64,000 bases of DNA, from positions 682,001 to 746,000 of the forward strand of contig NZ_JAMXMV010000001.1 of NCBI RefSeq assembly GCF_024055715.1, written 5' to 3'. Made by a program: the position numbers and the translations under genes. The first letter of the stretch is position 1, and every line of letters starts with the position of its first letter. Shown piece after piece: positions 8,507 through 59,845 of the stretch. The DNA is from Actinoallomurus soli (lineage in GTDB: Bacteria > Actinomycetota > Actinomycetes > Streptosporangiales > Streptosporangiaceae). The notes beneath the pieces were generated by a model, which saw only the letters and a list, made by a program, of their open reading frames with translations, made no database searches and was not told the DNA's origin.

Positions 8507-8528
8507 GGACGTTGGATATCCTACGTCC
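8507..8528. promoter_or_regulatory. 22-bp palindromic operator, nan-type (site 1)
   Basis: The core GGATATCC (8514-8521) is flanked by GGACGT on the left and ACGTCC on the right, giving a palindrome broken only at one symmetric T/T pair. It ends 11 bp before the ATG of the alpha/beta hydrolase. The same design occurs at 18078, 18961 and 59824 in front of sugar uptake and sialidase genes. Confidence 0.75.
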
Positions 8529-8539
8529 GAGGTGAGGGT

Positions 8540-9505
8540 ATGCCGGTGAATGAGAGCGCGTTCGACCCCGACATCGCCGCATGGCTGCGGCGGCGTGCCG
8601 CGGATCCCACCGCCGCCGACACTTCGGTGCGAGGAGCGCGGATCCACTCGCGGGCCGTGAACGAACGGTCCCGCGCGCTGCTGGCCGATCCGCCGGTCCC
8701 GTCCGCGGAGTACGACACCGTCCTGGAGACGGCGACCGGCCCACTGCCCGCGCGTGTCACCGAGCCGCCCGTACGGAGCGACGCCACGGTCGTGTTCTTC
8801 CACGGCGGCGGCTGGATCGCCGGCGACCTGCGGACCCATCTCCAGCACATGCGCAGGCTCGCCGTGGAGGCCGGCGCGACGGTGATCGGCGTGGACTACC
8901 GGCTGGCGCCCGAGCACCCGTTCCCAGCGGCGTTCGACGACTGCCTCGCCGCGACGCTGCACGTCGCCGGAGGCCGGAGCGGGCCGCTCGCCGTGGCCGG
9001 CGACAGCGCCGGCGGCCAGCTCGCGGCTTCGGTCGCCCTCGCCTGCCGCGACGAGGGGGTCGAACTGGCCGGGCAGCTGCTGGTCGTCCCGGTCACCGAC
9101 GTGTCGGGGGGATACGCCGATCCGGACGTGAACGCGCGCTACCCGTCGCGGGCCGAGCGCGCCGAAGGGTACGGGCTGACCATGGAGGGGATGCGCTGGT
9201 TCGCCGAGTTGTACCGCCCGCCCGGGCGCGGCGACGACTGGCGGGTGTCGCCGCTGCGCGCGGACGACCACACCGGTGCGGCCCCCGCCGTGATCCACAC
9301 CGCGGGTTTCGACCCGCTGCGCGATGAGGGCGACGCCTACGCGGTCGCGCTGCGTGCCGCCGGGGTGCCCGTCGTGCACCGTCAGTGGGCCACCCTCAAC
9401 CACGGGTTCTTCGGGTTGGGCGGCGTGTCGGCGTCGGCCGACCGCGCGGCGCGGCAGGCCGCCACCGACCTGCGCGCGCTGCTCACGGGGGTCAGAACGC
9501 CGTGA
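8540..9505 (+). CDS. Alpha/beta hydrolase, hormone-sensitive-lipase family (possible sugar-ester deacylase)
   Basis: The 321-residue esterase has the oxyanion motif HGGGW near residue 90 and the nucleophile motif GDSAGG near 154. The remaining triad candidates are Asp in AGFDPLRDEGDAY and His in LNHGF. ATG 8540 has AGGTGAGGG upstream. The nan-type operator just before the start places it under the FadR-type regulator of the sialic acid operon. From that context I infer a role on acylated sialic acids or a related sugar ester; the family alone does not show substrate. No signal peptide is visible, so it acts in the cytoplasm. Confidence 0.85.
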   Translation: MPVNESAFDPDIAAWLRRRAADPTAADTSVRGARIHSRAVNERSRALLADPPVPSAEYDTVLETATGPLPARVTEPPVRSDATVVFFHGGGWIAGDLRTHLQHMRRLAVEAGATVIGVDYRLAPEHPFPAAFDDCLAATLHVAGGRSGPLAVAGDSAGGQLAASVALACRDEGVELAGQLLVVPVTDVSGGYADPDVNARYPSRAERAEGYGLTMEGMRWFAELYRPPGRGDDWRVSPLRADDHTGAAPAVIHTAGFDPLRDEGDAYAVALRAAGVPVVHRQWATLNHGFFGLGGVSASADRAARQAATDLRALLTGVRTP

Positions 9506-9672
9506 GGCGCCGCGGACCGGGGCCGGAACGCCGTGAGGCATCGCCGGCCGGCGAGCGCCGCCGACCGGCCTCGGAACGCCGTCAGGCATCGCCGATCTAT
9601 GCGCCTCGCCGACTCAGAACGGCCGGAGGCACCGCTGACCGGGCGCGTGCCGCCGATCGGGTCATGACGCCG
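9495..9672. repeat. Reiterated gene-end repeat between convergent genes
   Basis: A block like GAACGCCGTGAGGC-TCGCCG, which covers the stop codon of the hydrolase gene, recurs in degenerate form near 9522, 9572, 9615 and 9663. The copies fill the 156-bp gap before the convergent nanE gene and run slightly into its 3' end. Confidence 0.55.
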
Positions 9673-10354
9673 TGACGGCGGCGGCGAACCGGGTGGTGAT
9701 CCAGCGTGGATCGGTGATCGCCGTACCGACCACCACACAGCTCGCGCCCGCCTGGATCGCGGCCGCCGCGGTCTCCGGCGAGTGGTATCGACCCTCGGCG
9801 ATGATCAGCGCGTCGGGGAGCCTGCGGCGCAGCGCCCGTACGAGTCCCAGGTCGGGACCTTCGGGCAGCGGGCCCGGCGCGGTGTAGCCGGACAGAGTGG
9901 TGGCGATGGCGTCGGCGCCCGCCTCGGCGGCGGTCACGCCCTCCTCCACCGTCGCCACGTCCGCCATGAACAGCGCGCCCTCCGCGTGGACCGCCGCGAT
10001 CGACTCGGCGAGCGGCCGGCCGTCCGGGCGCGGACGGAACGTGGCGTCGGCCGCCACGACCTGCGCGCCGGCCCTGACGACGGCGCGGGCCGCCTCGACG
10101 GTGGGGGTGATGTAGACGCCCTCCGCGCCGTCCTTGGTCAGGCCGATGACGGGGACGTCCACGGCGGCGGCGACCGCGGCCACGTCGGGGATTCCGCCGA
10201 CCCCGCCGCAGCGGATCGCGGCGGCGCCTCCGCCGACCGCGGCCTCGGCCATCCGGACCAGCGTGCCCGTGTCGCGCAGCGGGTGCCCGTCCGGAGCCTG
10301 GCAGGACACGACCAGCCGGCCCGTCACGGCGGCGGCGAAGGTCTCGGCGTTCAT
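9662..10354 (-). CDS. nanE: N-acetylmannosamine-6-phosphate 2-epimerase
   Basis: The 230-residue NanE-family TIM barrel converts ManNAc-6-P to GlcNAc-6-P. Family marks are VSCQAPDGHPLRD at the N-terminus, IRCGGVGGI, VIGLTKDG with the catalytic Lys, VYITPT, AADATFRPRPDG and IIAEGRY. ATG 10354 overlaps the nanK stop by 4 nt. The frame is open well upstream, but that part lies inside nanK. It is the last gene of the sialic acid operon, so its product enters amino-sugar metabolism through NagA/NagB encoded elsewhere. Confidence 0.93.
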   Translation of the reverse strand: MNAETFAAAVTGRLVVSCQAPDGHPLRDTGTLVRMAEAAVGGGAAAIRCGGVGGIPDVAAVAAAVDVPVIGLTKDGAEGVYITPTVEAARAVVRAGAQVVAADATFRPRPDGRPLAESIAAVHAEGALFMADVATVEEGVTAAEAGADAIATTLSGYTAPGPLPEGPDLGLVRALRRRLPDALIIAEGRYHSPETAAAAIQAGASCVVVGTAITDPRWITTRFAAAVTAS

Positions 10355-11418
10355 CGGAGGCTCCCTGGGGACGTGGCGGTCTCGGCGGCGGGGGTGGGCG
10401 GCGCGTCGTGAGCGAGCAGGGCGTCGTGAGCGAGCAGGGCGTCGTGAGCGAGCAGGGCGTTGTGGGCGAGCAGGGCGGCGCCGACCAGCGGCGCGTCCGT
10501 GCCCAGCCGGGCGGGGAGGATCGGTGTCGCGCGCAGCGGCGGAAGCGCCTCGTGACGGAACGCGGTGGTGACGGCGTCGAGGAACGGCGCGCCGATCTGC
10601 GCGACTCCGCCACCGATCACGACGGCGTCGGGGTCCAGGACGGCCAGCAGTCCGGCCAGCGCACGCCCCAGCAGCGCCCCGGCGCGGGGCGTGTCGCCGG
10701 TGACGGCGATGGCGGGGCCGGACGCCACCGCCTCCAGGTGATCGCGGCGACCGCAGCCGCACGGTATCGGCCCTTCTTCGGGAACGAGCAGGTGAGCGAG
10801 TTCCCCCGCCGTGCCGTGCGCCCCGTGTTCGAGGCGCCCGCCCACGGTCAGGGCGCCGCCGACACCGGTCCCGACCGAGACGTGCAGGACGCGGTGGTGC
10901 CCCGCGCCGGCACCCGCCCGTGCCTCGCCGTAGGCCATGGCCCGGACGTCGTTGACCACGGTGACGGGCAGGCCGGTGAGGGCGGCGAGTGTTCCGCGGA
11001 CGTCCGCCCCCGCCCAGCCCGGCAGCACGTCGGTGGCCGAGACGACGCGTCCGGTGGCCGGGTCGACCACTCCGGGCGCGCCGACGCCGAGGCCGCGGAC
11101 GGCCGTACGACCGAGCCCACGGCCGGCGGCACCGCCGGGCCGGCGGACGGCCGCGTCGTCTCGGCCGCGGTCGGCTGCGCCGTCTCGCCCGTAGGGGGTG
11201 ACGCCGTCCCGGCCGCGGTCCGCCGCGTCGCGTCGGTCGTGGTCGGTGGTGCCGCTGAGGTCGTTCAGCAGGCGGGCCGCCGCCCTGAGCACGGCGTCGG
11301 CGCCTTCGCGGGGCGTCGGCACCCGGTCGCGCCGCAGGACCGTTCCATCCTCGTCCACCAGCGCGGCGGCGATTTTGGTGCCACCGACGTCCAGGGCGGC
11401 GAACACCGGGCCGTTCAC
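10351..11418 (-). CDS. nanK: N-acetylmannosamine kinase, ROK family
   Basis: The 355-residue ROK sugar kinase phosphorylates ManNAc in this pathway. It shows the phosphate motif DVGGTKIAAAL at the N-terminus, GLGVGAPGVVD, and the zinc/ROK signature region EHGAHGTAGELAH followed by PCGCGRRDHLEA. The usual third Cys of the zinc site is replaced by Asp-His. Two oddities make it longer than typical ROK kinases (~300): an Arg/Asp-rich insertion at about residues 54-105, and a C-terminal stretch of four LLAHDA units encoded by an 18-bp tandem repeat. Overlaps of 4 nt with nanA and nanE show co-translation. Confidence 0.9.
   Translation of the reverse strand: MNGPVFAALDVGGTKIAAALVDEDGTVLRRDRVPTPREGADAVLRAAARLLNDLSGTTDHDRRDAADRGRDGVTPYGRDGAADRGRDDAAVRRPGGAAGRGLGRTAVRGLGVGAPGVVDPATGRVVSATDVLPGWAGADVRGTLAALTGLPVTVVNDVRAMAYGEARAGAGAGHHRVLHVSVGTGVGGALTVGGRLEHGAHGTAGELAHLLVPEEGPIPCGCGRRDHLEAVASGPAIAVTGDTPRAGALLGRALAGLLAVLDPDAVVIGGGVAQIGAPFLDAVTTAFRHEALPPLRATPILPARLGTDAPLVGAALLAHNALLAHDALLAHDALLAHDAPPTPAAETATSPGSLR
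10403..10474. repeat. 4 x 18-bp tandem repeat inside nanK
   Basis: Four units of 18 bp run from 10403 to 10474. The first three are identical and the fourth (10457-10474) has two changes. In the gene they encode (LLAHDA)x3 plus LLAHNA in the C-terminal tail, outside the kinase motifs. The identity of the units points to recent or ongoing slippage. Confidence 0.92.
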
Positions 11419-12371
11419 AGCAGCCCGGCGGCGGCCAGGACGCGGCGGACGTGCTCGGCCTCCGCGGCGTCCAGCTGGATCTGCGGCGGCGCGGTGACCG
11501 GGCAGTCGATGACCCCGCGCAGGTGCAGAGCGGCCTTGAACGAGCCGAGCGCCGAGGAGCCGCGTCCCATCCGGGCCGTCGCGCCCGCGTTGACGATGTC
11601 GAACAGGCGCATCAGCCGCTCCTGCTCGGCGCGGGCCTCGTCCCAGCGCCCGGCGCGGCAGAGCCGGTACAGGCGGACGTAACCCTCCGGGTCGACGTTG
11701 CCCAGGCCGGGGACGACGCCGTTGGCGCCCATGGCCAGCGCCGCGTCCACGGTCAGCTCGGAGCCGGTCAGGACGCTGAACCCGCCGGTGTCCGCGTCGC
11801 GGAGCGCGACGAGCAGCCCGCGCAGCCCGGCGTCGTCGCCGCTGGAGTCCTTCACGCCGGCGAGGACGCCCTCGGACGCCAGCCGGAGCAGCATCGCGGC
11901 GTCCAGTTTGCAGTGCACCGAGACCGGGAGGTCGTAGGCGTAGACGGGAACCGGGACGGCGGCGGCGACCCGGCGCAGGTGCGCCTCGATCTCCACCGGA
12001 TGGGTGCGGGTGTAGAACGGCGCGGTGACGACGACACCGTCACAGCCGATCGAGGCGGCGGCCCGCGCGTGCTCGATCACCCGCAGGGTGGTCATGTCGA
12101 TCGCGCCGGCGAGCACCGGGACCTGCCCGGCGACGTGCTTGACGACCGTCTCCAGGACCGTACGGCGGTGCGCGTCGGGCAGGAACGCGACCTCGCTGGT
12201 GGAGCCGAGCACGAACAGTCCGTCCACGCCGGCGCCGACGAGATGGTCGACGAGCCGTTCGAGGGACGGGACGTCCACGTCCAGTTCGGGGGTCAGCGGC
12301 GTGCAGACGGGCGGTACGACACCGCACAGCGCCGGTGCGGTTCCGGTGGGTTCGGGGGGAGCGGCGGTCAC
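11415..12371 (-). CDS. nanA: N-acetylneuraminate lyase, DapA/NAL family
   Basis: The 318-residue aldolase cleaves sialic acid to ManNAc and pyruvate. Carboxylate-binding GSTSE is at residues 56-60, the catalytic Tyr is probably Y146 in YAYDLP, and the Schiff-base lysine is K174 in GVKDSSG. GTG 12371 has AGGAG upstream and overlaps the preceding ATPase stop by 4 nt. GSTSE replaces the more usual GSTGE, so substrate range could differ. The family also contains DapA and other 2-keto acid aldolases; adjacency to nanK, nanE and a sialidase makes NAL the best reading. Confidence 0.88.
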   Translation of the reverse strand: MTAAPPEPTGTAPALCGVVPPVCTPLTPELDVDVPSLERLVDHLVGAGVDGLFVLGSTSEVAFLPDAHRRTVLETVVKHVAGQVPVLAGAIDMTTLRVIEHARAAASIGCDGVVVTAPFYTRTHPVEIEAHLRRVAAAVPVPVYAYDLPVSVHCKLDAAMLLRLASEGVLAGVKDSSGDDAGLRGLLVALRDADTGGFSVLTGSELTVDAALAMGANGVVPGLGNVDPEGYVRLYRLCRAGRWDEARAEQERLMRLFDIVNAGATARMGRGSSALGSFKAALHLRGVIDCPVTAPPQIQLDAAEAEHVRRVLAAAGLL

Positions 12372-13384
12372 GGGATCTCCTGGGAAACGCTGGAAAGGGC
12401 GAGGTCTGACGGTCCGGTGACCGGGTGCAGGCAGCGGTACCGGTGCGCGGCGTCGTCCGCCGTGGTGAAGCCGGGCATCGCGGCGCCGCACTCGTCGGTG
12501 GCGCGCCAGCAGCGGGTACGGAACGGGCATCCGCTGGGCGGATGGACGGCGGACGGGACGGGCCCCTCGAGCCGGATCGGCTCCATCGGATCGAGCAGGC
12601 TGGGTGTGGCGGACAGCAACGCCCGGGTGTACGGGTGACGGGCTTCGCCGCCGGCGACGACGGAGGCCGGGGCGTCCTCGATGATCCGGCCGAGGTACAT
12701 GGTGACGACCCGGTCGGACATGCGCCGTACGGTCTGGATGTCGTGCGAGACGAACACCATCGACAGCCCGAGCCGGTCCTTCAGATCCAGCAGAAGGTTG
12801 AGGATCTGGGCCCGAACCGATACGTCGAGCGCGGAGGTCGGCTCGTCCGCGACCAGGAGCGAGGGGTCGAGCGCGAGGGCGCGGGCGATCGCGACACGCT
12901 GCCGCTGCCCGCCCGAGAGCTGGCCGGGGAGCGCGGAGGCGAGGTGCGGGGGCAGGCCGACCAGGGACATCAGCTCGCGGACCCGCGCGTCGCGCTCGGC
13001 GGGCGTGCCACGTCGGTGCACGTCGAGCGGGTCCCGCAGGATCGCCCGTACGGTCAGCCGCCGGTTCAGCGCCGTGGCCGGATCCTGGAACACCATCCCG
13101 ACGGACGCGCCGAGCCGCACGGCGCGCTCACGGGACCGCAGCGGCCCGAGGTCGGTGCCCTCGAACAGCACCGTTCCCTCGGTGGGCCGGGCCAGCCCGA
13201 CCAGCACCTTCGCCAGCGTGGACTTGCCGCAGCCGGACTCACCGACGATCCCGACCGTCTCGCCGCGCCCGATGGCGAGGTCGGCGCCGGTCAGCGCGTG
13301 CACCACGTCACGGCGCAGCGGGTTCCCGCCGCGTACGGGCAGCCGTACGTGCACGCCGCGCAGTTCCATGAGGGGCTCGTTCAT
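12368..13384 (-). CDS. ABC transporter ATPase, Opp/Dpp F type (sialic acid importer)
   Basis: The 338-residue ATPase contains Walker A GESGCGKST, the signature LSGGQRQR and Walker B LLVADEPTSALD. The C-terminal OligoHPY tail has spaced cysteines (CPFRTRC, then ECG and YRC) as in Dpp ATPases. ATG 13384 has GGAGG upstream and overlaps the fusion gene stop. It pairs with the ATPase half of the fusion protein to energise import. The SBP/permease/fusion/ATPase set resembles the SatABCD-type sialic acid importers described in Haemophilus ducreyi and Corynebacterium (from memory, not checked). Confidence 0.88.
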   Translation of the reverse strand: MNEPLMELRGVHVRLPVRGGNPLRRDVVHALTGADLAIGRGETVGIVGESGCGKSTLAKVLVGLARPTEGTVLFEGTDLGPLRSRERAVRLGASVGMVFQDPATALNRRLTVRAILRDPLDVHRRGTPAERDARVRELMSLVGLPPHLASALPGQLSGGQRQRVAIARALALDPSLLVADEPTSALDVSVRAQILNLLLDLKDRLGLSMVFVSHDIQTVRRMSDRVVTMYLGRIIEDAPASVVAGGEARHPYTRALLSATPSLLDPMEPIRLEGPVPSAVHPPSGCPFRTRCWRATDECGAAMPGFTTADDAAHRYRCLHPVTGPSDLALSSVSQEIP

Positions 13385-15420
13385 CGCGGTCCTCCCGCCG
13401 TGGCCGGGACCTGGCCGGACGGATCGGCGGGTGCGCCGATCGGGTGGTGGCAGGCGAAGGCGTGCCGGTGTGGCTCGCCGGACGCCTCGGGACGGGTCGT
13501 GGCGCACAGGTCGGTGGCGGCGGCGCATCGGTCGGCGAACCGGCAGCCCGCCGGGAAGCGCGCCGGTGACGGGACGACACCGGGGATCTGCACGGGCCGC
13601 TCGCCCGCCGCCTCCAGCGAGACGACCGCGCCGAGCAGGCCGCGCGCGTAGTGGTGCCGGGGGGAGGCGATCAGCTCGGCGGTGACGCCGGCCTCGGCGA
13701 CCTGCCCGCCGTACATCACGACGACGCGGTCGGTGACGTCGGCGACGAGCGCCAGGTCGTGCGAGACGAGGATCAGCGCGAATCCGAGTTCGGCGCGCAG
13801 CCGCAGCAGCAGCCGCATGACCGCCGCCTGGACGGTGACGTCCAGCGCGGTCGTCGGCTCGTCGGCGACGACCAGCCGGGGGTCGCGGGACAGCGCCATC
13901 GCGATCAGCACCCGCTGCCGCTGCCCGCCCGACAGCTCGTGCGGGTAGCTGCGCAGCGTACGGTCCGGGTCGAGACCGACGAGTCCGAGCAGCTCGGCGG
14001 GGGTACGGGTGCCGCCGCGCCGGGTGAACTGACGGAGCTGGGCGCGGATCGTCATCGCCGGGTTCAGCGAGGACAGTGCGTCCTGGTAGACCATCGCCAT
14101 GTCGTGGCCGAGGAGTCCGCGCCGCTCCCGGGCCGGCATGGCGCGCAGGTCGCGGCCGTCGAACAGCAGCCGCCCGCCGATCCGTGCGCCGGGCGGCTCC
14201 AGCCCCATGATGGCCAGGCTGGTGAGGCTCTTGCCGCAGCCGCTCTCGCCGACGAGCCCGACGACCTCGCCGGGCCGTACCTCCAGGGACACCCGGTCGA
14301 CCACGTCGACGCCGCCGTACCGTCCTGGGAAGCCGATGGTGAGGTCCTCGACGCGCAGCAGAGGCTCACCCGTGGGGAGGGGGCGGGCCCGTCCGGCCAG
14401 CCGCCGCCCGGCCTCGCGGAGATCGTCGTCCATCCGCGCGGCCGACGCCGCCGCGGCGGCCGCGGCCGGCCGGACGTCCTCCTCGGCGTCGGCTGCGGCC
14501 TCGGACTCCGCAGCGGTGCCCGCCCCGGCTCCGGTGGCCGGGCCCGCGGCGGTGTCCGCGTCGGAGCCGGACCGGGCGGCCGGGGCGGCCCAGGCGTCCG
14601 ACACGCCCTCGGACAGGACGTTCAGCACCAGCACCGTGGCGAGGATGAACAGACCGGGGAAGAAGGTCGCCCACCAGCCGCCCGCCAGCACGAGGGCCTT
14701 GCCGTACGCGATGACGCTGCCCCACGACGGGTCGGGGTCCTGGACGCCCGCGCCCACGAACGACAGGCTCGCCTCGAACACGATCGCGTTGGCGACGACG
14801 ATCGTGCAGAACACCAGGATCGGCGCGGCGCAGTTGATCAGGACGTGCCGCCACAGGATGTGGCCGCGCCCGGCGCCGATGACGCGTTCCGCCGCGACGT
14901 AGTCCTCGCCGTACTGCGACAGCACGTTGCCCCGCACCACCCGCGCGATCTGCGGGACGTACAGGAATGCGATCGTGCAGATCAGCACCGGCAGGCTCTT
15001 GCCGAACACGGTGACGAGCACGGCCGCGAGCGCGACCGCAGGGAACGCCATGATCACGTCCAGGCAGCGCATGACGACCTCGTCGACGACGCGGTGCGCG
15101 GTCGCGGCGATCGAGCCGAGCAGCGCGCCGGCGACCAGCGCCAGCGCCGCCGCGCCGAGACCGATCGCCAGCGACCAGCGCGCCCCGTACAGCACCCGCG
15201 CGAACACGTCGCGGCCGACGCGGTCGGTGCCGAACCAGTGGTCGGCGGACGGTCCCTGCCCGGCCACCCCGGTGGTCAGCGGGTCGTGCCCGGCGATCAG
15301 CGGCGCGGCCAGCGCCGTCACGATGATCAGCAGCAGTACCGCCAGCGCGGTGCGGGACGCCGGGCGCAGCCGCCGCCATCCCCGCAGCAGGGCGGCCGCC
15401 GGATGCGGCTTCGCGGTCAT
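13381..15420 (-). CDS. Fused ABC permease-ATPase (DppC-DppD type, sialic acid importer)
   Basis: The 679-residue protein joins two subunits normally encoded separately. Residues 1-280 are a DppC-like permease (about six TM segments, EAA-like loop at YVAAERVIGA). Residues 281-350 are an Ala/Glu-rich linker. Residues 351-679 are an ATPase with Walker A GESGCGKS at 391-398, signature LSGGQRQR and VVADEPTTALD. A Cys-containing OligoHPY tail follows (CRFADRC). No frameshift is needed. The parallel operon at 59.9-64 kb has the same fusion, so the design is ancestral to both. ATG 15420 is chosen; overlaps link it to both neighbours. Confidence 0.9.
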   Translation of the reverse strand: MTAKPHPAAALLRGWRRLRPASRTALAVLLLIIVTALAAPLIAGHDPLTTGVAGQGPSADHWFGTDRVGRDVFARVLYGARWSLAIGLGAAALALVAGALLGSIAATAHRVVDEVVMRCLDVIMAFPAVALAAVLVTVFGKSLPVLICTIAFLYVPQIARVVRGNVLSQYGEDYVAAERVIGAGRGHILWRHVLINCAAPILVFCTIVVANAIVFEASLSFVGAGVQDPDPSWGSVIAYGKALVLAGGWWATFFPGLFILATVLVLNVLSEGVSDAWAAPAARSGSDADTAAGPATGAGAGTAAESEAAADAEEDVRPAAAAAAASAARMDDDLREAGRRLAGRARPLPTGEPLLRVEDLTIGFPGRYGGVDVVDRVSLEVRPGEVVGLVGESGCGKSLTSLAIMGLEPPGARIGGRLLFDGRDLRAMPARERRGLLGHDMAMVYQDALSSLNPAMTIRAQLRQFTRRGGTRTPAELLGLVGLDPDRTLRSYPHELSGGQRQRVLIAMALSRDPRLVVADEPTTALDVTVQAAVMRLLLRLRAELGFALILVSHDLALVADVTDRVVVMYGGQVAEAGVTAELIASPRHHYARGLLGAVVSLEAAGERPVQIPGVVPSPARFPAGCRFADRCAAATDLCATTRPEASGEPHRHAFACHHPIGAPADPSGQVPATAGGPR

Positions 15421-16376
15421 CGCGTCGCTCCCTTCAGACGGGGGTTCGCGAACAGGTACAGCACGTCCACGAGCAGGTTGACGACGAGGAACGTCAGCGC
15501 GATGCACAGCACGACGCCCTGCACCAGCGCCGGGTCACCGGCGGTGACGCCCTGCATGATCAGGGTGCCGAGGCCGGGCAGCCCGAAGATCGCCTCGACT
15601 ACGACGGCGCCGCTGAGCAGGTAGCCGATCTGCAGGCCGAGCACGGTCAGCGGAGTGATCAGGGCGTTGCGCAGGACGTTGCGGCCGACTACGACGAAGC
15701 GCGGCAGCCCGCCGCCGATCGCGGTCCGTACGTAGTCGCGGTCCAGTTCCTCGACCATCGCGGTGCGCACCACACGGGCCAGCAGCGAACCGACCGGGAA
15801 GCCGACGGCGAGCGCGGGCAGCGCGAGGCTGCGCAGCCAGCCGCCGACCGAGTCGCCGGGGTTGACGTACCCGCCGGTGGGGAACCAGCCGAGGCGCAGC
15901 GCGAACCACTGGATCAGCAGGATGCCGAGCCAGAACGACGGCATCGCGACGCCCGCCATGGACAACACCCGGATGACCTGGTCCGGCCAGCGGTCCCGGA
16001 ACAGCGCCGCGGTCACGCCGAGGACCACGGCGAACACCACACCGAAGAGCACCGCCAGCAGGGTCAGTTGCAGCGTGAGCGGGAACGCCGTCCCGATCGC
16101 GCTGGTGACCGGCCGGCTCGGCGGCGCGGTCAGCCCCAGGTCCCCGTGCAGCAGGTCGCCCAGGAATCGGACGTACCGCACCGGCAGCGGGTCGGTGAGC
16201 CCGTGCGCGACCGCGTACGCGTGTCGCGCCTCGGGCGTCGCGCCCTCGCCGAGCGCGTTGTAGGCGGGGTCGTTGGGGGAGAAGCGCAGTACGACGAACA
16301 CGAACAGCGTGATCCCCAGCACCATCGGCACGAGGGTCAGCAGCCGTCGCAGCGCCATGCGCAGGATCGTTGCCAT
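15417..16376 (-). CDS. ABC transporter permease, DppB type (sialic acid importer)
   Basis: The 319-residue integral membrane protein has an N-terminal TM (LLTLVPMVLGITLFVFVVL), the typical periplasmic segment with FSPNDPA, and the EAA-like cytoplasmic loop DYVRTAIGGGLPR before the last TMs. It pairs with the permease half of the fusion protein to form the pore. The 3' end overlaps the fusion gene by 4 nt; 34 bp separate it from the SBP gene. No strong Shine-Dalgarno precedes ATG 16376. Confidence 0.9.
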   Translation of the reverse strand: MATILRMALRRLLTLVPMVLGITLFVFVVLRFSPNDPAYNALGEGATPEARHAYAVAHGLTDPLPVRYVRFLGDLLHGDLGLTAPPSRPVTSAIGTAFPLTLQLTLLAVLFGVVFAVVLGVTAALFRDRWPDQVIRVLSMAGVAMPSFWLGILLIQWFALRLGWFPTGGYVNPGDSVGGWLRSLALPALAVGFPVGSLLARVVRTAMVEELDRDYVRTAIGGGLPRFVVVGRNVLRNALITPLTVLGLQIGYLLSGAVVVEAIFGLPGLGTLIMQGVTAGDPALVQGVVLCIALTFLVVNLLVDVLYLFANPRLKGATR

Positions 16377-16410
16377 CCGGGTGGAGTCCCTTCTTCGCGG
16401 CCCGGGACGG

Positions 16411-18015
16411 TCAGGCGCGGCCGACGTTCAGGAACGACAGCCCCGTGGTCGCCATCGGCCGGAAGCCCGGCAGCCTGTCGGCCTTCCAGCCGGTGTCGAG
16501 CTTGCGGTGGAGGATCGGGTACAGCGCGGCCTGCTCGGCGACGATGTCGATGGCCTGCCCCCACAGCTTCTTGCGCGCGGCGTCGTCCGCTTCGCGGGCG
16601 GCCTGGTCGAGCAGGCCGACGACCTTCTTGGCCTCGGGGGTCGAGGCGTTGTAGCTGCGGTGCTCGGGCCAGGTGCCGACGTAGAACCAGCGCATCAGCA
16701 GGTCCACGTCGTTGCCGAACACCGACGGGTCGCCGGGCGCGGCCATGACCTGGTACTTGCCGGTGTCGACGAGGTTGGAGTACTGCCCGCCGGACTGGCC
16801 GATGTTGAGGCTGGTGGCGACGCCGATCGCGTCCCAGCTCTGCTTGATCAGCGGCGCGCAGTCCTTCACGAAGTCGGTGTCGGTGGTGACGAGCTCGACC
16901 TTGAGGCCGCTGACGCCGGCCTGGGACAGCAGCTGCCTGGCCTTGGCCGGGTCGTAGCCGTAGACGGTGGAGGCCTGGACATAGTCGGGGTGAGCGGAGG
17001 GCAGGAAGCTGGTCGCGGCGGCGGCGTTGCCGAGCAGCGCGGTCTTGATCAGCTTGTCGGTGTCGAGGGCGTAGTGCAGCGCCTGGCGCACCCGCACGTC
17101 GTCGAACGGCCTGGCCTTGCAGTTGAACATCAGGAACAGCAGGCCGAAGCTCTGCACGGCCTCGACGGTCGCGGACCTCTTGAGCTCGTCGGCGTTGAGG
17201 TACGGGACGGCTTCGATCGCCTGGACGCGTCCGGACTGCAGCGCGGTGACCCGTGCGGACGGGTCGGCCAGCAGGAGCCAGTTCATCCTGGCGGCCTTCG
17301 CGGGGCGCGGCCCGTTGTAGGCGTCGTACTTGGCGAACGACAGGCCGTTGGTGGCGCTCGCGGCGGTCAGCCGGTACGGGCCGGACCCGACCGGCAGCGC
17401 GTCGAACTTCTTCTGGTCCGCCTGGACGATCTTCTTCGGCACGATCCGTACGACGGCGAGCCGCTCGGCGAACAGCGCGAACGCGTACTTGAGGGCGAAC
17501 TCGACCGTGCTGTCGTCGACCTTCTTCACGCCGTCCAGGAACGGCAGGAACTGCACGAACAGGGAGGCGTTCGTCGGATCCAGGACCCGCTCGAAGCTGA
17601 AGACGACGTCGTCCGCGGTGACCTTCGACCCGTCGTGGAACGTGGCGCCGTCGCGGATCGCGACCCGGTAGGTCGTGTCGTCGACCTTGACGGGCGCCGC
17701 CTTGGCCAGCGCGTTGTAAGGCCGCCGGGTGACCGGGTCGAGATCGACGAGCGACTCCAGCACGTGGAAGTTGGCGGCGACGGCGACCGCGCTGGAGGAC
17801 GTCATCGGGTCGAAGCCGCCCGACAGCGCGTAGGCGAGGGCCGCCTGGATCGTGTCCTTCGAACCGCCCGAACCGCCGGAACCACCGGAGCCGGTGGAGG
17901 AGGGGCCGCCGCACGCGGACACCCCGGCGGTGATCGCGGCGGCCGCGCCGAGCAGGCCGGAATAGCGCAGGAAGTCGCGGCGGTGCAGACCGCGTCCCGG
18001 CTGGAGATCGGTCAC
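16411..18015 (-). CDS. ABC substrate-binding lipoprotein, SBP family 5 (sialic acid importer)
   Basis: The 534-residue protein is an extracytoplasmic solute-binding protein of the peptide/nickel family 5. It starts with a Tat motif RRDFLRYSG and ends its signal with the lipobox VSAC, followed by a Ser/Gly-rich linker, so it is a Tat-exported lipoprotein. GTG 18015 has GGAG upstream; the longer open frame runs through the promoter and operator and is rejected. It is the first gene of the operon and follows the operator at 18078-18099. Family 5 proteins also bind peptides; the linked catabolic genes argue for sialic acid. Confidence 0.9.
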   Translation of the reverse strand: MTDLQPGRGLHRRDFLRYSGLLGAAAAITAGVSACGGPSSTGSGGSGGSGGSKDTIQAALAYALSGGFDPMTSSSAVAVAANFHVLESLVDLDPVTRRPYNALAKAAPVKVDDTTYRVAIRDGATFHDGSKVTADDVVFSFERVLDPTNASLFVQFLPFLDGVKKVDDSTVEFALKYAFALFAERLAVVRIVPKKIVQADQKKFDALPVGSGPYRLTAASATNGLSFAKYDAYNGPRPAKAARMNWLLLADPSARVTALQSGRVQAIEAVPYLNADELKRSATVEAVQSFGLLFLMFNCKARPFDDVRVRQALHYALDTDKLIKTALLGNAAAATSFLPSAHPDYVQASTVYGYDPAKARQLLSQAGVSGLKVELVTTDTDFVKDCAPLIKQSWDAIGVATSLNIGQSGGQYSNLVDTGKYQVMAAPGDPSVFGNDVDLLMRWFYVGTWPEHRSYNASTPEAKKVVGLLDQAAREADDAARKKLWGQAIDIVAEQAALYPILHRKLDTGWKADRLPGFRPMATTGLSFLNVGRA

Positions 18016-18077: not shown

Positions 18078-18099
18078 GGATGTAGGACATCCAACATCC
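18078..18099. promoter_or_regulatory. 22-bp palindromic operator, nan-type (site 2)
   Basis: Core GGACATCC (18085-18092) lies between left arm GGATGT and right arm ACATCC. It sits just downstream of the minus-strand promoter at 18112-18140 and between the divergent SBP and FadR-type regulator genes, so a repressor bound here would block the uptake operon and could autoregulate. Confidence 0.8.
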
Positions 18100-18140: not shown

Positions 18141-18184
18141 GTGGCGGGCCGCGGGCAACCGACGTGATGGGGAGTGTGAACCGA

Positions 18185-18931
18185 ATGACCGCAGCTCGGA
18201 CTCGGGGGCGCGCGACGCGCGGCCGCAGCGGCCGCAGCAGCCGTACCGAGCAGGTGCAGCAGCGGATCAAGCAGCTGATCCTGGAGCGCGGCCTCGCCGC
18301 CGGCGACCCGATGCCGACCGAGTTCGAACTCGTCGATGAGCTGGACATCAGCCGCAACTCGCTACGCGAGGCGCTCAAGGCGCTTGAGGCCGTCGGCATC
18401 GTGGAGATCCGGCACGGCTTCGGGATGTACGTCGGCAGCATGTCGCTCAGCGCGCTGGTCGATGAGCTGACCTTTCACGCCCGCATGTCCAAGCGCCAGG
18501 GCCGCGACGATCTCGCCCATCTGGTCGACGTCCGCGAGGTTCTGGAGCGCGGCCTGGTCGAGCAGGTCATCGACCGCGGCCTGGCGTCCGACACGTCCGA
18601 GCTGGACGAGGTCATGCGCCGGATGGAGGCCGAGGCCGAGGCGGGCGAGGTGACCCCCGAGACGGACCGGCTCTTTCACGAGCTGCTCTACCGGCCGCTC
18701 GCCAATCCGATCGTCAACCAGCTGCTCGGGGCGTTCTGGGACGTCTACCGCAGCCTGCAGCACGACCTGGCGCCCGTCCGGCAGGAGGCGGCCGACGTCG
18801 CGCAGCGGCACCGCGACATCTACGACGCGCTCGTCGCCGGGGACTGCGCGGCCGCCGCCGAGGCGATGGCCGCGCACTTCCACGGCATCCGCACCCGCCT
18901 GGGTACGGCCCGCGGTGGCGCGGGGGCTTGA
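18185..18931 (+). CDS. FadR-type GntR regulator of sialic acid genes (NanR-like)
   Basis: The protein (about 248 residues) has an N-terminal winged helix (PTEFELVDELDISRNSLREALKALEAVG, then IRHGFGMYVG) and a C-terminal FCD domain (DRLFHELLYR, AQRHRDIYDAL, AAHFHGIRTRL) with His/Asp residues for a metal-bound ligand. ATG 18185 with GGGGAG upstream is preferred over GTG 18164. It lies between the divergent uptake operon and the sialidase, and closely resembles the regulator at 58991-59761. I infer that it binds the 22-bp sites and is released by a pathway sugar. Confidence 0.88.
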   Translation: MTAARTRGRATRGRSGRSSRTEQVQQRIKQLILERGLAAGDPMPTEFELVDELDISRNSLREALKALEAVGIVEIRHGFGMYVGSMSLSALVDELTFHARMSKRQGRDDLAHLVDVREVLERGLVEQVIDRGLASDTSELDEVMRRMEAEAEAGEVTPETDRLFHELLYRPLANPIVNQLLGAFWDVYRSLQHDLAPVRQEAADVAQRHRDIYDALVAGDCAAAAEAMAAHFHGIRTRLGTARGGAGA

Positions 18932-18960: not shown

Positions 18961-18982
18961 CGCGACAGGACATCCTACGTCC
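18961..18982. promoter_or_regulatory. Nan-type operator before the sialidase (site 3, left arm degenerate)
   Basis: Core GGACATCC (18968-18975) and right arm TACGTCC (18976-18982) match the other sites exactly, but the left arm is lost. A further GATGTCC-like half-site follows near 18990. The position at the transcript start suits repression. Confidence 0.65.
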
Positions 18983-19010
18983 GATGTTCGATGTCCGATG
19001 AAGGAGGGTC

Positions 19011-20735
19011 ATGCTCCCGTCCTCGCGTTCCCGGCCCGCCGCCCTCACCGCCGTGACCACGATCGGCGCCGTGACCACGATCGGCGCGGCCGCCGCGGCG
19101 GTCGCCGTCCCCGCGGCCGCTCGCGCCGACACCGCGCAGACCGCGATCGTCACCACCGACTGCACGTCCAGCCGCCTCCAGGAGACCGTGGTCAACCGGA
19201 CGTCCTCGGCCACCACCTTCACGCTGACCTGGCCCGGCATGGGCACCTGGACGGCCTCCGTCGCCGCCGGCGACAGCGGCCACTTCTTCTTCACCAAGCC
19301 GTCCGGCACCCCGTACACGCTCCACACGACCACTCCACAGGGCCTCGACCAGACCGACACCGGCACCCTGGACTGCTCGAACGCCCTCACCGCCCGTGCC
19401 GCCATGGACTGCGGAAGCACCCACCGGCTCCGCCTCATCCTGGACAACCGGTCGCCGGCCGCCCGCACCTTCACGGTCGCCTGGCCGGGACGATCCGGCT
19501 CGCCCTGGACCGTCACCGTCCCCGCCGGTTCCGGCGACGACACCCTCTACTGGACGGTCCCGGACGGCACCCCCTACACCTTCCAGGCCTCCTCCGGAAC
19601 CTGGAACCGCACCCTGTCGGGGACGTCCGGCTGCGGTCTCGGCTCCGGACGACCCGGGATGAACGCGCAGACGGTCCTGACGACCTCCACGGTCATCGAC
19701 GGGCTCGGCACGGCGGCCAAGTCCGTCCGGATTCCCGCGCTGGCCGTGGCGAATGACGGTACGGTCGTCGCCGCCATGGACGCGCGGGTGGACGGCAGCG
19801 CCGACCTCGGCGGCGGAACCAACGACATCCAGGTGGCGATGGTGCGCAGCACCGACGGCGGTGCCACCTTCTCAACGCCGAAGATCATTGCGCATGCCCC
19901 GACCACGTCCGAGGGTTACGGTGACCCGAGCCTTCTCGTGGACCGCACCACCGGGAAGATCTTCTGCTTCTTCACCTATTCCCCCAAGCCGGGCGTCGGC
20001 TACGCCGGCTCCACCGCGGGCGACACCTCGGCGACCGCCACGACGAACACCCACATCCGCTACGTCACCTCGGCCGACGGGGGTGCGACCTGGAGCGCCG
20101 CGACCGACCTCAACCCGCAGGTCCGCGACACGGCTTGGGCCGGCATGTTCGCCTCCTCCGGCCACGGCGTCCAGCTCGCGTCCGGGCGCCTCGTCCAGCC
20201 GATCGTCTACCACGACGCCGACGGCGACCACGCGTCGAACATCTACTCCGACGACCACGGCGCGACCTGGCACAACGGCACGACCGCCGGCACCGGCGTC
20301 AATGAGAGCAAGATCATCCAACGCTCCACCGGCCGCGTCGCGCAGAACATGCGCTCCAACGCCGGCGGCAACCGCTGGTACGCCACGGCGGCCGATGTCA
20401 CGGCGCCCTACGGCACCGCCTGGAACAGCGGCCTGATCGACCCGGGCTGCAACGGCGACGAGATCTCCTATCTGACGCCCATCTCCGGCGCGCCGGCTCT
20501 GACGAACGTCGCCCTGCACAGCAACAACGCCGCCACAGGCCGGACCGACCTCACCGTCCGGCTGAGCCGTGACGACGGCTCCAGCTGGCCACAGGAGGCA
20601 CTCCTCAAGCCGGGAGCCGCGGGGTACTCCACCATGGCGGTCCTTCCCGACGGCTCGGTCGCGGACCTCTACGAGATCGGCGACACCGGCGGGATCGTCT
20701 TCACCCGCTTCACCGTCCCCTGGCTGGCCCCCTGA
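19011..20735 (+). CDS. Secreted sialidase, GH33, with duplicated N-terminal domain
   Basis: The 574-residue enzyme releases terminal sialic acids. A signal peptide ends near ARA-D (residue 39/40). Two similar ~75-residue domains follow, each bounded by a Cys pair (C51-C122 and C134-C208) and each with a TFTxxWPG and PxGTPYT segment. The catalytic beta-propeller starts near 220, with the RIP arginine motif (240-242). Four Asp boxes are visible: STDGGATF (280-287), SADGGATW, SDDHGATW and SRDDGSSW. The nucleophile Tyr is probably in DLYEIGD. ATG 19011 has AAGGAGG. The paired N-terminal domains are unassigned and may bind glycans. Confidence 0.92.
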   Translation: MLPSSRSRPAALTAVTTIGAVTTIGAAAAAVAVPAAARADTAQTAIVTTDCTSSRLQETVVNRTSSATTFTLTWPGMGTWTASVAAGDSGHFFFTKPSGTPYTLHTTTPQGLDQTDTGTLDCSNALTARAAMDCGSTHRLRLILDNRSPAARTFTVAWPGRSGSPWTVTVPAGSGDDTLYWTVPDGTPYTFQASSGTWNRTLSGTSGCGLGSGRPGMNAQTVLTTSTVIDGLGTAAKSVRIPALAVANDGTVVAAMDARVDGSADLGGGTNDIQVAMVRSTDGGATFSTPKIIAHAPTTSEGYGDPSLLVDRTTGKIFCFFTYSPKPGVGYAGSTAGDTSATATTNTHIRYVTSADGGATWSAATDLNPQVRDTAWAGMFASSGHGVQLASGRLVQPIVYHDADGDHASNIYSDDHGATWHNGTTAGTGVNESKIIQRSTGRVAQNMRSNAGGNRWYATAADVTAPYGTAWNSGLIDPGCNGDEISYLTPISGAPALTNVALHSNNAATGRTDLTVRLSRDDGSSWPQEALLKPGAAGYSTMAVLPDGSVADLYEIGDTGGIVFTRFTVPWLAP

Positions 20736-52621: not shown

Positions 52622-52639
52622 CGATCCGCCTCGGCGACG

Positions 52640-55932: not shown

Positions 55933-56042
55933 CCACCGGAAGACCCCGACGCGGCCACCGGCGAGATCGCCCGCCGCTCCCCACGATGCGCGAAGAGGTC
56001 GCCGTCTGCGCTAGAGTTGTTCCGCTCGCTCGCGGCGGGCAC

Positions 56043-56116
56043 CGGGACGTGGCCTAGCTTGGTAAGGCGTCTGACTGGGGGTCAGAAGATCGTGGGTTCA
56101 AATCCCGCCGTCCCGA
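56043..56116 (+). tRNA. tRNA-Pro (anticodon GGG)
   Basis: A full cloverleaf is visible. The acceptor arms CGGGACG and CGTCCCG pair perfectly. The D arm is GCCTAGCTTGGTAAGGC. Anticodon stem TCTGA/TCAGA holds the loop CTGGGGG, so the anticodon is GGG. The T arm is GTGGG-TTCAAAT-CCCGC, followed by discriminator A. CCA is not encoded. Confidence 0.93.
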
Positions 56117-56141
56117 CACAGTGCGGCTAGTTCGGCCGCAG

Positions 56142-56181
56142 GTCAGGGCCCTGGATCACTTCGGTGAGACGGGGCCCTGAC
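56142..56181 (+). terminator. Hairpin terminator after tRNA-Pro
   Basis: GTCAGGGCCC (56142-56151) and GGGCCCTGAC (56172-56181) form a perfect 10-bp stem, and the loop contains a small TCAC-TTCG-GTGA hairpin. No T-tract follows. The next 180 bp to 56361 hold no supported gene and no integrase trace. Confidence 0.75.
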
Positions 56182-56361
56182 TGCTTCCCGGGGCCGGTCG
56201 GACCGCGCACGGGTGTGCGCATGGGCGATCTCGCCCGATTCGACCATCGCGAGCAGCCTGTCAGGCATCCCGTTCTTGGTCGCGATTGCAGGACTGCCGC
56301 AGGTCGAGGGCGTCACCGGCCAGGCGGGACCCCTTGAGAGGACCTCGCCGGCCCTCCGGAC

Positions 56362-57114: not shown

Positions 57115-57129
57115 GATCCTCCCTCACTT

Positions 57130-57189
57130 GCGTACATCGTACCCAGTGACCTAACCTCGGCCGCATAATCGCGTACGACGTACCCAGTG
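57130..57189. promoter_or_regulatory. Paired TetR operators
   Basis: A 19-bp element is repeated at 57130-57148 and 57171-57189 with two differences. Each holds GTAC-NNN-GTAC followed by CCAGTG. The 41-bp centre spacing is about four helical turns, fitting two dimers on one face of the DNA. Confidence 0.7.
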
Positions 57190-57197
57190 GAGGGTTC

Positions 57198-58142
57198 ATG
57201 GCGGATCCGATCGTGTTCGCCGAGGGGCTGCGCAAGTCCTTCGGCGACGTTCAGGCGCTGCGCGGCCTGGACCTGAGCGTCCCGAGGGGAAGGGTCTGCG
57301 GCGTGCTCGGGCCGAACGGCGCGGGGAAGACGACCGCGGTGCGCATCCTGGCGACCCTGTCCGACCCCGACGCCGGACACGCCCGCATCGCCGGGTACGA
57401 CGTGGTCCGCCAGGCCGGGGAGGTGCGGGCCAGGATCGGGCTCGCCGGCCAGCACGCCGCCGTGGACGAGAAGCTCACCGGCCGTGGCAACCTGCGCATG
57501 TTCGGGCGCCTCTCCCACCTGCCCCGGCGCGAGGCGCACCGGCGGGCCGACGAGCTGCTCGAACGCTTCGGCCTGACGGACGCCGCCGATCGCCAGGTCG
57601 CCGGCTACTCCGGCGGGATGCGGCGCCGCCTCGACCTGATCACCAGCCTCATTCTGCGCCCCGAGGTGCTCTTCCTGGACGAGCCGACCACCGGCCTGGA
57701 CCCGCGCAGCCGCGGCGAGATCTGGGACAGCGTCCGCGAGCTGGTGGCGGACGGCACCACCGTGCTGCTCACCACGCAGTACCTGGACGAGGCCGACCGG
57801 CTCGCCGACGACATCGCCGTCGTCGACCAGGGGCGGGTGATCGCCACGGGCACTCCCGACGAGCTCAAGGCCACGATCGGGGACCGCCTCGACGTCGTCG
57901 TCGAGGATCCCGCCGCGCTGCGGTCGGCCGCCACCGTGCTGACCACCCTGGCCGGGACCGGCCCCACGACGATGGACGCCGACCGGCTGAGCGTCGCCCT
58001 GCCCGGCGGCGGCCTCCGCCTCGCCGACGTCGTGCGCGAGCTCGACCGCGCCGGGGTCGCCGCGGCCGACGTGAGGCTGCGCCGCCCCACCCTCGACGAG
58101 GTCTTCCTGCGCCTCACCGACCGGAAGGAGCCCGTCCGATGA
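57198..58142 (+). CDS. drrA: Daunorubicin-resistance-type ABC ATPase
   Basis: The 314-residue ATPase of the DrrA family has Walker A GPNGAGKTT, the signature YSGGMRRR, Walker B VLFLDEPTTGLD and the typical family C-terminal domain ending PTLDEVFLRLT. ATG 57198 has GGAGGG upstream. It overlaps drrB by 4 nt. It powers export of a hydrophobic drug or lipid; the name marks family, not proven substrate. Confidence 0.88.
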   Translation: MADPIVFAEGLRKSFGDVQALRGLDLSVPRGRVCGVLGPNGAGKTTAVRILATLSDPDAGHARIAGYDVVRQAGEVRARIGLAGQHAAVDEKLTGRGNLRMFGRLSHLPRREAHRRADELLERFGLTDAADRQVAGYSGGMRRRLDLITSLILRPEVLFLDEPTTGLDPRSRGEIWDSVRELVADGTTVLLTTQYLDEADRLADDIAVVDQGRVIATGTPDELKATIGDRLDVVVEDPAALRSAATVLTTLAGTGPTTMDADRLSVALPGGGLRLADVVRELDRAGVAAADVRLRRPTLDEVFLRLTDRKEPVR

Positions 58143-58960
58143 CCGCCCTCACCTCGCCGACGAGTCGCCGACTGCTCTGGACCTTCACCGACGGGCTGAC
58201 CCTGGTCGGCCGCGAGCTGGGGCGCCTGCGGCAGAACCCCGGGGAGCTCGTCGCCGCACTGATCTTTCCAGCCGTCATGGTCGTGCTGTTCGGGTACGTC
58301 TTCGGCAGCGCGATCCAAGTGCCGGGCGGGGGGAACTACCGCGAGTACCTCATGCCCGGGCTGTTCGCGATGGTGACCTTCCTGGCGGTGATGGGGGTCA
58401 TGACACGGATGGCCACCGACGCCGCCCGCGGTGTGATGGACCGGTTCCGGTCCATGCCGATGGCCCGGTCGGCGGTACCGTTCGGGCAGACCGGCGCCGA
58501 CTCCCTGACCGGCCTGCTGTCGCTGGCCATCATGGTCGGGGCGGGCCTGCTGGTGGGCTGGCGGCCGCATCGCGGCCTGATCCCCACGGTCGAGGCGTTC
58601 CTGCTGATGATGCTGCTGCGGTACGCGCTGAGCTGGGTGGGCGCCTTCGTGGGCCTGGTGGTGCGGGACGAACAGGCCGCCGACCAGTTCGTACCGCTGT
58701 TCCTGCCGTTCACCATGCTGTCCAACGCGTTCGTCCCGACCGGCGGCATGCCGGGGTGGCTGCGGTTCCTGTCCGACTGGAACCCGGTGAGCGCGCTCAC
58801 GGCGGCCTCCCGGAGGCTGTTCGGCAACCCCGGCGCTCCGTCCGGGGACCTGGCCTGGCCGCTCGCGCATCCGGTGGCCACCGTCCTGCTCTGGTCGGCC
58901 GCGCTGCTGCTGATCTTCGTCCCCCTGTCGGTCCGCACCTATAGGCGCAAGGGACGGTAG
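58139..58960 (+). CDS. drrB: Daunorubicin-resistance-type ABC permease
   Basis: The 273-residue ABC-2 membrane protein has six TM segments, beginning with a family-typical NPGELVAALIFPAVMVVLFGYVFG. It also shows MDRFRSMPMARSAV and a last loop FVPTGGMPGWLRFLSDWNPVSALTAA. ATG overlaps drrA. It is convergent with the FadR-type regulator 30 bp beyond its stop. Confidence 0.9.
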   Translation: MTALTSPTSRRLLWTFTDGLTLVGRELGRLRQNPGELVAALIFPAVMVVLFGYVFGSAIQVPGGGNYREYLMPGLFAMVTFLAVMGVMTRMATDAARGVMDRFRSMPMARSAVPFGQTGADSLTGLLSLAIMVGAGLLVGWRPHRGLIPTVEAFLLMMLLRYALSWVGAFVGLVVRDEQAADQFVPLFLPFTMLSNAFVPTGGMPGWLRFLSDWNPVSALTAASRRLFGNPGAPSGDLAWPLAHPVATVLLWSAALLLIFVPLSVRTYRRKGR

Positions 58961-58990
58961 GCGGGGCAGGCGGAGGCGGCTGGGCCTCGG

Positions 58991-59761
58991 TCAGTCGTCG
59001 CGGAGGCGGGCGAGGCGGGTGCGGATGCCCGCGAAGTGGGCGACCATCGCCGTCTCGACGGCGTCCCGATCTTCCGCGATCACCGCGGCGTAGATGTCGC
59101 GATGCTTGCGGGCGACGTACTCCGGGGTCTCGTCCGGGGTGCCCAGCTCGTCCCTGAGCTGGTGGAAGACCTGCCAGAACGCGCCGAGGAGCCGGCCGAC
59201 CAGCGGGTTGCCCAGCGGCCGGTAGAGCGCGTCGTGGAAGAGCCGGTCGGCCTCCGGCGAGACGGCGCCGACGAGCGCCTCGGCCTCCATCCGCTCGAGC
59301 GCCTCACGGGCGGGGGAGAGCAGGTCGGTGAGGTCCGCGCCGCCGTGCCGGTCGATCAGGCGCGCGGCCAGGCCGTTCTCCAGGAGCTCGCGAATCTCGA
59401 TCAGGTGGGCCAGGTGGCTCTGCTCGTCCTGCGGCGTGATCCGGCTGTGAAAGGCCAGTTCGTCGACCAGGCCGTTCAGTGACATCTGGCCGACGAACAT
59501 GCCGAAGCCGTGGCGGATGTCGACGATGCCGACGGCTTGGAGGGCCTTTAGCGCCTCTCGTACCGAGTTGCGCCCGATGTCCAGTTCCTGCATAAGCTCG
59601 GTCTCTGTCGGCATCGGATCCCCGGCGGTCAGCCCGCGTCGGACGATCAGTTCCTTGACCGCTTCCTGCACTTCGAGCGCCCGGCTCAGCCGACGGCCTC
59701 GGGCGGGGGCCGGCCTACCGGGCTCGGCGAGGGGGCGATCGTCGCGCAACGTCACGGACAT
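58991..59761 (-). CDS. FadR-type GntR regulator, paralogue of the nan regulator
   Basis: The protein (256 residues from ATG 59761) matches the regulator at 18185-18931 along its length. The winged helix reads PTETELMQELDIGRNSVREALKALQAVG then IRHGFGMFVG; the FCD domain includes DRLFHDALYR and ARKHRDIYAAV. The near-identical recognition helix predicts the same operator, and a perfect copy lies at 59824-59845. The Shine-Dalgarno AGGAG abuts the ATG, so the true start may differ. It is divergent from the second importer. Confidence 0.86.
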   Translation of the reverse strand: MSVTLRDDRPLAEPGRPAPARGRRLSRALEVQEAVKELIVRRGLTAGDPMPTETELMQELDIGRNSVREALKALQAVGIVDIRHGFGMFVGQMSLNGLVDELAFHSRITPQDEQSHLAHLIEIRELLENGLAARLIDRHGGADLTDLLSPAREALERMEAEALVGAVSPEADRLFHDALYRPLGNPLVGRLLGAFWQVFHQLRDELGTPDETPEYVARKHRDIYAAVIAEDRDAVETAMVAHFAGIRTRLARLRDD

Positions 59762-59778
59762 CTCCTGGTCATCTGCTC

Positions 59779-59808
59779 TTGACGCCAAACGTAACCGACT
59801 TCTAGTCT
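59779..59808 (+). promoter_or_regulatory. Promoter of the second uptake operon
   Basis: TTGACG (59779-59784), an 18-nt spacer and TAGTCT (59803-59808) precede the operon, with the operator 15 bp further on. This is the same arrangement as at the sialidase and the nan operon. Confidence 0.62.
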
Positions 59809-59823
59809 CCGACGCTATCAGAT

Positions 59824-59845
59824 GGACGTGGGACGTCCCACGTCC
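59824..59845. promoter_or_regulatory. 22-bp palindromic operator, nan-type (site 4, perfect)
   Basis: The palindrome is perfect: core GGACGTCC (59831-59838) with arms GGACGTG and CACGTCC. It lies between the divergent FadR-type regulator and the second SBP gene, downstream of the promoter. Confidence 0.82.

Follow-up and report, generated by a model that had tools for sequence, protein, structure and literature searches.

We analyzed a 64,000-nucleotide stretch of the Actinoallomurus soli genome (9,422,568 bases in 60 contigs), hereafter the window, which corresponds to C11:682001-746000. Four short repeat arrays in the window and a fifth elsewhere in the genome appear to be the operators of one sialic-acid (nan) regulon under two paralogous NanR-like repressors of the GntR/FCD family (regulators 1 and 2), which would be released by sialic acid; judging from sequence comparison, we put the probability of this reading at about 0.88. 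The original prediction, made from the letters of the window, had placed copies of a 22-bp operator at 8507, 18078, 18961, and 59824, and the sequences are present at all four positions. Its description of a shared core and right arm, with the left arm kept in three copies, applies to three full copies of the 22-mer GGAYRTNGGAYRTCCNACRTCC, all near-perfect or perfect palindromes; the copy at 18961 matches from 18968 only. Although first taken for a 22-mer lacking its left arm, this last site is better read as a directional array that starts at 18968 and does not include the left 7 bases. The resulting operators are the following:

8507..8528, operator copy 1, palindromic three-unit array, 11 bp 5' of the hydrolase start (22-mer match, 0 mismatches)
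18078..18099, operator copy 2, between the solute-binding protein 1 operon and regulator 1 (22-mer match)
18968..19000 (end approximate), operator copy 3, four AYRT units spaced 7 bp apart in a directional array, 5' of sialidase 1
59824..59845, operator copy 4, a perfect palindrome flanked by regulator 2 and solute-binding protein 2 (22-mer match)
C27:35909-35930, fifth operator, outside the window, directly 5' of sialidase 3 (22-mer match, at most 1 mismatch)

The 22-mer was searched across the whole genome with up to 3 mismatches allowed and the reversed pattern as a control. At this threshold, it occurs at 8 forward places, compared to 1 for the control. With at most 1 mismatch, the full-genome scan that the original prediction had called for yields four places, namely, the three full window copies and the new site at C27:35909, with none outside the regulon rather than many random matches. 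The looser array AYRT-N3-AYRT-N3-AYRT, with no mismatch, matches at 8 forward places genome-wide, with the five regulon sites accounting for 6 of these (control, 1), and the window contains exactly four places with at least 3 AYRT units at 7-bp spacing, all of which are the sites predicted originally. The direct-repeat pattern of the array at 18968 has no other match in the genome without mismatches and one more at a single mismatch. Thus, the whole-genome counts of the 22-mer and of the AYRT array against their controls exclude chance as the source of the repeated geometry. The two extra loose-array matches outside the regulon (L080 and L081) were inspected by sequence and are not claimed as members. 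Near position 1500 of L081 (C11:1219917), a repeat, TGACACGTC, is followed by its complement about 30 bp further on, an arrangement that resembles the operator of another regulator.

The rule common to all sites is the spacing of the AYRT units at exactly 7 bp. We compiled up to 320 bases 5' of 31 regulator homologues, all foreign to the A. soli genome: 22 foreign loci, plus 9 of the 13 named ones after exclusion of the four most distant named loci (L039-L042). These regions contain 44 AYRT pairs 7 bp apart, compared to 0.72 ± 0.86 in shuffled sequences, along with 21 pairs at 14 bp and 7 at 21 bp, whereas no other distance between 4 and 30 bp exceeds 4 pairs; the 31 loci are related, so that these pairs are not independent events. 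A run of at least 2 units is present upstream of 22 of the 31 homologues.

The internal order of the arrays was derived from 28 distinct arrays of at least 3 units (5 from A. soli and 23 from relatives, duplicate sites removed). Exactly one symmetric center, GGAYRTCC, is present in 26 of these arrays, none in 2, and two in no array, and the order of the arms is never broken (0 of 28). Among the 63 spacers, 23 are NGG, 34 are CCN, and 6 are neither; NGG is followed by CCN 18 times (6.9 expected on shuffling), and CCN by NGG never (7.0 expected, with a minimum of 1 in 2000 shuffles), although kinship among the arrays inflates the strength of all these figures. The rule holds across loci named Actinoallomurus, Actinomadura, Actinoplanes, and Streptomyces. 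Directional repeats that keep the 7-bp register make up the array of sialidase 1 and those of several relatives (types =<< and >>=). Each neighboring pair of units makes up RT-N3-AY, so that n units provide n-1 overlapping dimer sites. As described in passages of PMC4494728, operators of the FadR subfamily usually consist of GT and AC with 3 bases between them, and a core of this type, RT-N3-AY, recurs here at every 7-bp step. Some arrays come in pairs. Two arrays about 150 bp apart (L026:1348 and 1501) include a weaker one, lacking the symmetric center, beside the sialidase 3 operator, and array pairs 146-157 bp apart lie upstream of four regulator homologues (L055, L057, L058, and L069). Paired arrays at about this distance near the same regulon genes could permit looping.

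A TTGAC-type promoter had been predicted 5' of three window sites and is present at 18078, 18968, and 59824. On the minus strand, TTGACC-17-TACGGT ends 12 bp before the 18078 site; TTGACG-17-TACCTT ends 11 bp before the 18968 array, and TTGACG-18-TAGTCT ends 15 bp before the 59824 site. Over both strands, the window has 4 matches to the general pattern TTGACN-16..19-TANNNT, of which 3 end 11-15 bp before a site. At the C27 site, the pattern lies 4 bp upstream; no TTGAC-type promoter was found upstream of the 8507 site. Overall, the promoter pattern is located 4-19 bp upstream at 4 of the 5 A. soli sites and at 15 of the 19 target-side sites tested in relatives.

Two of the window sites adjoin genes for GntR/FCD regulators, in line with the original prediction, which named regulators of the FadR type; the two proteins had been called near-identical, but share only 55% identity:

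18167..18931, plus strand, regulator 1, GntR/FCD, NanR-like (start 18167 or 18185; PF00392 and PF07729)
58991..59761, minus strand, regulator 2, GntR/FCD, NanR-like (PF00392 and PF07729; 55% identical to regulator 1)

Conservation is higher in the DNA-binding domain, where 48 of the 67 residues are identical. Both regulators match the GntR winged helix (PF00392, 66 bits) and the FCD domain (PF07729, 73-81 bits) above the Pfam cut-offs, and for both, the best NCBIfam match is NanR (NF003011; 110.6 and 110.2 bits). The Zn ligands of Escherichia coli NanR (Asp172, His176, His222, and His244) and its carboxylate-binding Arg128 are kept in both proteins, and two further residues that contact N-acetylneuraminate (Neu5Ac) in E. 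coli NanR are replaced by similar ones. A search of viral contigs for the regulator found no relative. A tRNA-Pro (ggg) gene is located at 56043-56117, about 3 kb from regulator 2.

The sites recur in other genomes next to the same kinds of genes. Among the sites found in other genomes at up to 1 mismatch, 13 of 14 adjoin a sialidase, NanA, importer, or regulator gene. In a sample of 8 genomes of the genus, A. soli included, 5 carry the site, and all 8 foreign sites adjoin a sialidase, importer, or regulator gene. In a class sample of 345 genomes, the site is present in 6, and 5 of the 6 foreign sites adjoin NanA, sialidase, importer, or regulator genes, the exception being L045. A regulator homologue (E ≤ 1e-45) is encoded in 5 of the 6 site-bearing class genomes, compared to 17 of 345 overall (P = 9e-7, or 1.5e-5 when the A. 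soli genome is left out); these P values are too small owing to kinship between the loci and because at least three of the named ones duplicate genus genomes (L035, L036, and L037 repeat G002, G006, and G007 and are not independent loci), which has to be held against the reading. In all 8 named relatives of at least 57% identity, the regulator match starts no more than about 250 bp from either a GGAYRTNGGAYRTCCNACRTCC-type 22-mer (2 mismatches or fewer) or an exact GGAYRTCCNACRTCC. An array of at least 3 units is found at 5 of 28 NanA loci. Taken together, the genome-wide specificity, the fifth site, the foreign sites, and the co-occurrence of site and regulator support the original proposal that two importers, a sialidase, and a hydrolase belong to one regulon.

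The first set of regulon genes lies between operator copy 1 and the end of sialidase 1:

8540..9505, plus strand, alpha/beta hydrolase of the hormone-sensitive-lipase type (PF07859, 207 bits; HGGG and GDSAG motifs)
9662..10354, minus strand, NanE, N-acetylmannosamine-6-phosphate 2-epimerase (PF04131, 168 bits, the sole match in the genome)
10351..11418, minus strand, ROK sugar kinase, NanK-like (PF00480)
11415..12371, minus strand, NanA, N-acetylneuraminate lyase of the dihydrodipicolinate synthase (DHDPS) family (PF00701)
12368..13528, minus strand, ATPase of ATP-binding cassette (ABC) importer 1 (start uncertain; PF00005 and PF08352)
13381..15507, minus strand, permease-ATPase fusion of ABC importer 1 (start uncertain; PF00528 and PF00005)
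15417..16376, minus strand, permease of ABC importer 1 (PF00528)
16411..18015, minus strand, solute-binding protein 1, SBP_bac_5 (PF00496, 257 bits; GTG start, lipoprotein-like)
19011..20735, plus strand, sialidase 1 (BNR repeats, PF13088 and PF13859; four Asp boxes; own array)

Reading on the minus strand from 18015, the order is solute-binding protein, permease, permease-ATPase, ATPase, NanA, ROK kinase, and NanE. Thus, the canonical nan pathway, NanA, NanK, and NanE, is encoded together with a predicted sialic-acid importer at 9662-18015, which points to sialic acid as the natural substrate. The open reading frame (ORF) of NanA extends to 12530, and its start was set at the GTG overlapping the stop codon of the ATPase; its closest solved relative is PDB 5c54 (dihydrodipicolinate synthase/N-acetylneuraminate lyase; E = 9.8e-92, ORF residues 67-362). 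NanA falls below the NCBIfam cut-offs for nanA and dapA and the kinase below those for N-acetylmannosamine kinase, so that the names NanA and NanK rest on family and context. An ORF at 9597-10613 on the minus strand was rejected: it has no Pfam match, and NanE occupies a different frame of the same place.

The hydrolase has no obvious signal peptide, as judged by eye, and from its fold and catalytic motifs, it is a candidate sialate O-acetylesterase. At E ≤ 1e-70, it was found in the A. soli genome only (1 of 345 class genomes), with no match in the other 344. A relative with 62% identity over 321 residues, from Streptomyces sp. NRRL F-5126 (L033), comes last in a run of importer and sialidase genes that follows a similar array. 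The linkage of the hydrolase to the regulon therefore rests on the window site and this one relative.

A second row of genes starts at 59893, divergent from regulator 2, and runs past the end of the window (L017:281-6211):

59893..61500, plus strand, solute-binding protein 2, SBP_bac_5 (43% identical to solute-binding protein 1)
61544..62467, plus strand, permease of ABC importer 2 (PF00528)
62467..64000, plus strand, permease-ATPase of ABC importer 2

Beyond the window, the row continues with an ATPase, a second NanA (L017:1456-2376; 65-66% identical), sialidase 2 (a protein with a laminin-G-like domain), and a GH42 beta-galactosidase. In the ORF assigned to sialidase 2 (L017:1371-4214), the N-terminal part was discarded as a wrong-frame extension over the second NanA. 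The second NanA, sialidase 2, and GH42 (L017:1456-6211, C11:747456 onward) form a sialoglycan-degrading set. Sialidase 3 (L011:286-1522), behind the C27 operator, contains BNR_2 repeats, a FRIP motif, and four Asp boxes, and its top matches among sialidases of solved structure, 6mnj and 1eur included, have E values of 9e-33 to 1e-31. In total, the pathway comprises two ABC importers, two NanA, NanK, NanE, three sialidases, the GH42 galactosidase, and the esterase-like hydrolase.

These observations suggest a mechanism in which both NanR-like repressors would read one code, the AYRT units at exact 7-bp spacing. Each adjacent pair of units would serve as one FadR-type RT-N3-AY dimer site, and dimers would stack on the overlapping sites. 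Because the array closely follows the -10 box, bound dimers would block initiation. Imported sialic acid, probably N-acetylneuraminate, would be bound by the FCD domain and cause the dimers to leave the DNA, and the importers, the sialidases, NanA, NanK, NanE, and the candidate esterase would then be produced. Given the overlapping dimer sites, the adjacent dimers of E. coli NanR, and the kept Zn ligands and Arg128, we consider it most likely that dimers stack on the array, block initiation, and are released by a sialic acid, the effector being the weakest step. Which regulator binds a given site is likewise a matter of inference; presumably, both do, with some division of labor.

Several findings weigh against this scenario. 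Three of the 8 genus genomes lack a site at up to 1 mismatch, 9 of the 31 regulator homologues have no AYRT pair upstream, and the promoter pattern is absent at 4 of the 19 relatives' sites (L046, L047, L048, and L050). No array of at least 3 units was found in the 3.9 kb examined at 23 of the 28 NanA loci, in part because NanA sits inside operons. Both regulators score below the curated NF003011 cut-off of 260 bits, and the Neu5Ac contacts Asn165, Phe168, Arg203, His214, Asn215, Ser218, and Gln221 of E. coli NanR are kept in neither.

The loss of most Neu5Ac contacts outside the metal site would fit regulators that act mainly as activators, or that respond to a later product, such as N-acetylmannosamine-6-phosphate or N-acetylglucosamine-6-phosphate, instead of N-acetylneuraminate. 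We consider this rather unlikely, given that the sites occupy the repressor position downstream of the -10 box, that the metal ligands and Arg128 are kept, and that the GntR-type NanR of Bifidobacterium breve is, according to passages of PMC4746261, an N-acetylneuraminate-responsive repressor. It is also conceivable that a different protein, for example, a global sugar regulator, reads the sites and that the adjacent FCD genes merely share the locus; indeed, the 8507 and C27 sites do not adjoin a regulator gene. This is highly improbable because sites lie beside genes for FCD regulators in several genera, co-occur with the FCD family among the 345 genomes, and match the GT-N3-AC spacing of the FadR subfamily, as given in passages of PMC4494728.

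The palindromes could instead act in RNA, as 5' leader hairpins that control translation or termination, considering that the full window copies are palindromic and that, where a promoter is seen, the sites fall between it and the start codon. A perfect palindrome, however, leaves no loop, and the directional arrays of sialidase 1 and of the =<< and >>= relatives are unable to form the same hairpin but keep the 7-bp register, so that a role in RNA has hardly any likelihood. Operators bound by the two NanR-like regulators are the preferred explanation of the sites.

A broader proposal, to which we give somewhat less than an even chance, is that these regulators represent an actinomycete NanR-like class with a distinct operator grammar. 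A nucleating dimer would occupy the GGAYRTCC center and be extended on overlapping sites along outward 7-bp AYRT arms (NGG spacers to the left, CCN to the right); the number of arms would set the strength of repression, the two paralogs would share the code, and the hydrolase might be a new kind of intracellular sialate esterase. The regulon is a ready, testable one for sialic-acid use in actinomycetes; its operator code lets scattered members, such as sialidases and the candidate esterase, be found where gene-cluster searches fail, and the 7-bp arrays lend themselves to simple tests of the stacking of FCD repressors on overlapping sites.

As far as literature searches tell, what is new is the operator code together with the scattered regulon: no description of this 7-bp operator was found in the open-access literature, which supports novelty only weakly. 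Actinobacterial nan clusters were already known to carry FadR-type genes. As reported in passages of Li and Huang 2022 (PMC8754123), a COG2186 (FadR) regulator is present in 226 of 234 Actinomycetia nan clusters, and ABC importers are common; the paper treats clusters, in contrast to the scattered members described here, and its text does not contain the words operator, binding site, motif, or promoter. Also known is the NanR of Bifidobacterium breve, a GntR-type protein that represses nanBCDFA-nagB1-nanH and responds to N-acetylneuraminate (Egan 2015, cited in PMC4746261). The A. soli system resembles it in being actinobacterial and in its GntR-type regulator, but passages of PMC4746261 name one regulator and one gene set, compared to two regulators and scattered genes here.

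The E. coli NanR sialoregulon offers a close mechanistic parallel. According to passages of PMC8012715, three neighboring NanR dimers occupy (GGTATA)3, which lies downstream of the polymerase site, and their hold on the DNA is loosened by Neu5Ac. Shared with that system are the GntR/FCD repressor family, the nan targets, the kept metal ligands, the repeat operator 3' of the polymerase site, and, in all likelihood, several adjacent dimers. The A. soli sites are not (GGTATA)3 operators, differing in both unit and period: AYRT with GG/CC flanks follows a strict 7-bp period, whereas in K-12 the distances between repeat starts are 9 and 8 bp. Also unlike the E. coli sialoregulon, the A. soli regulon includes sialidases and ABC importers and encodes two paralogous regulators in which most other Neu5Ac contacts are changed.

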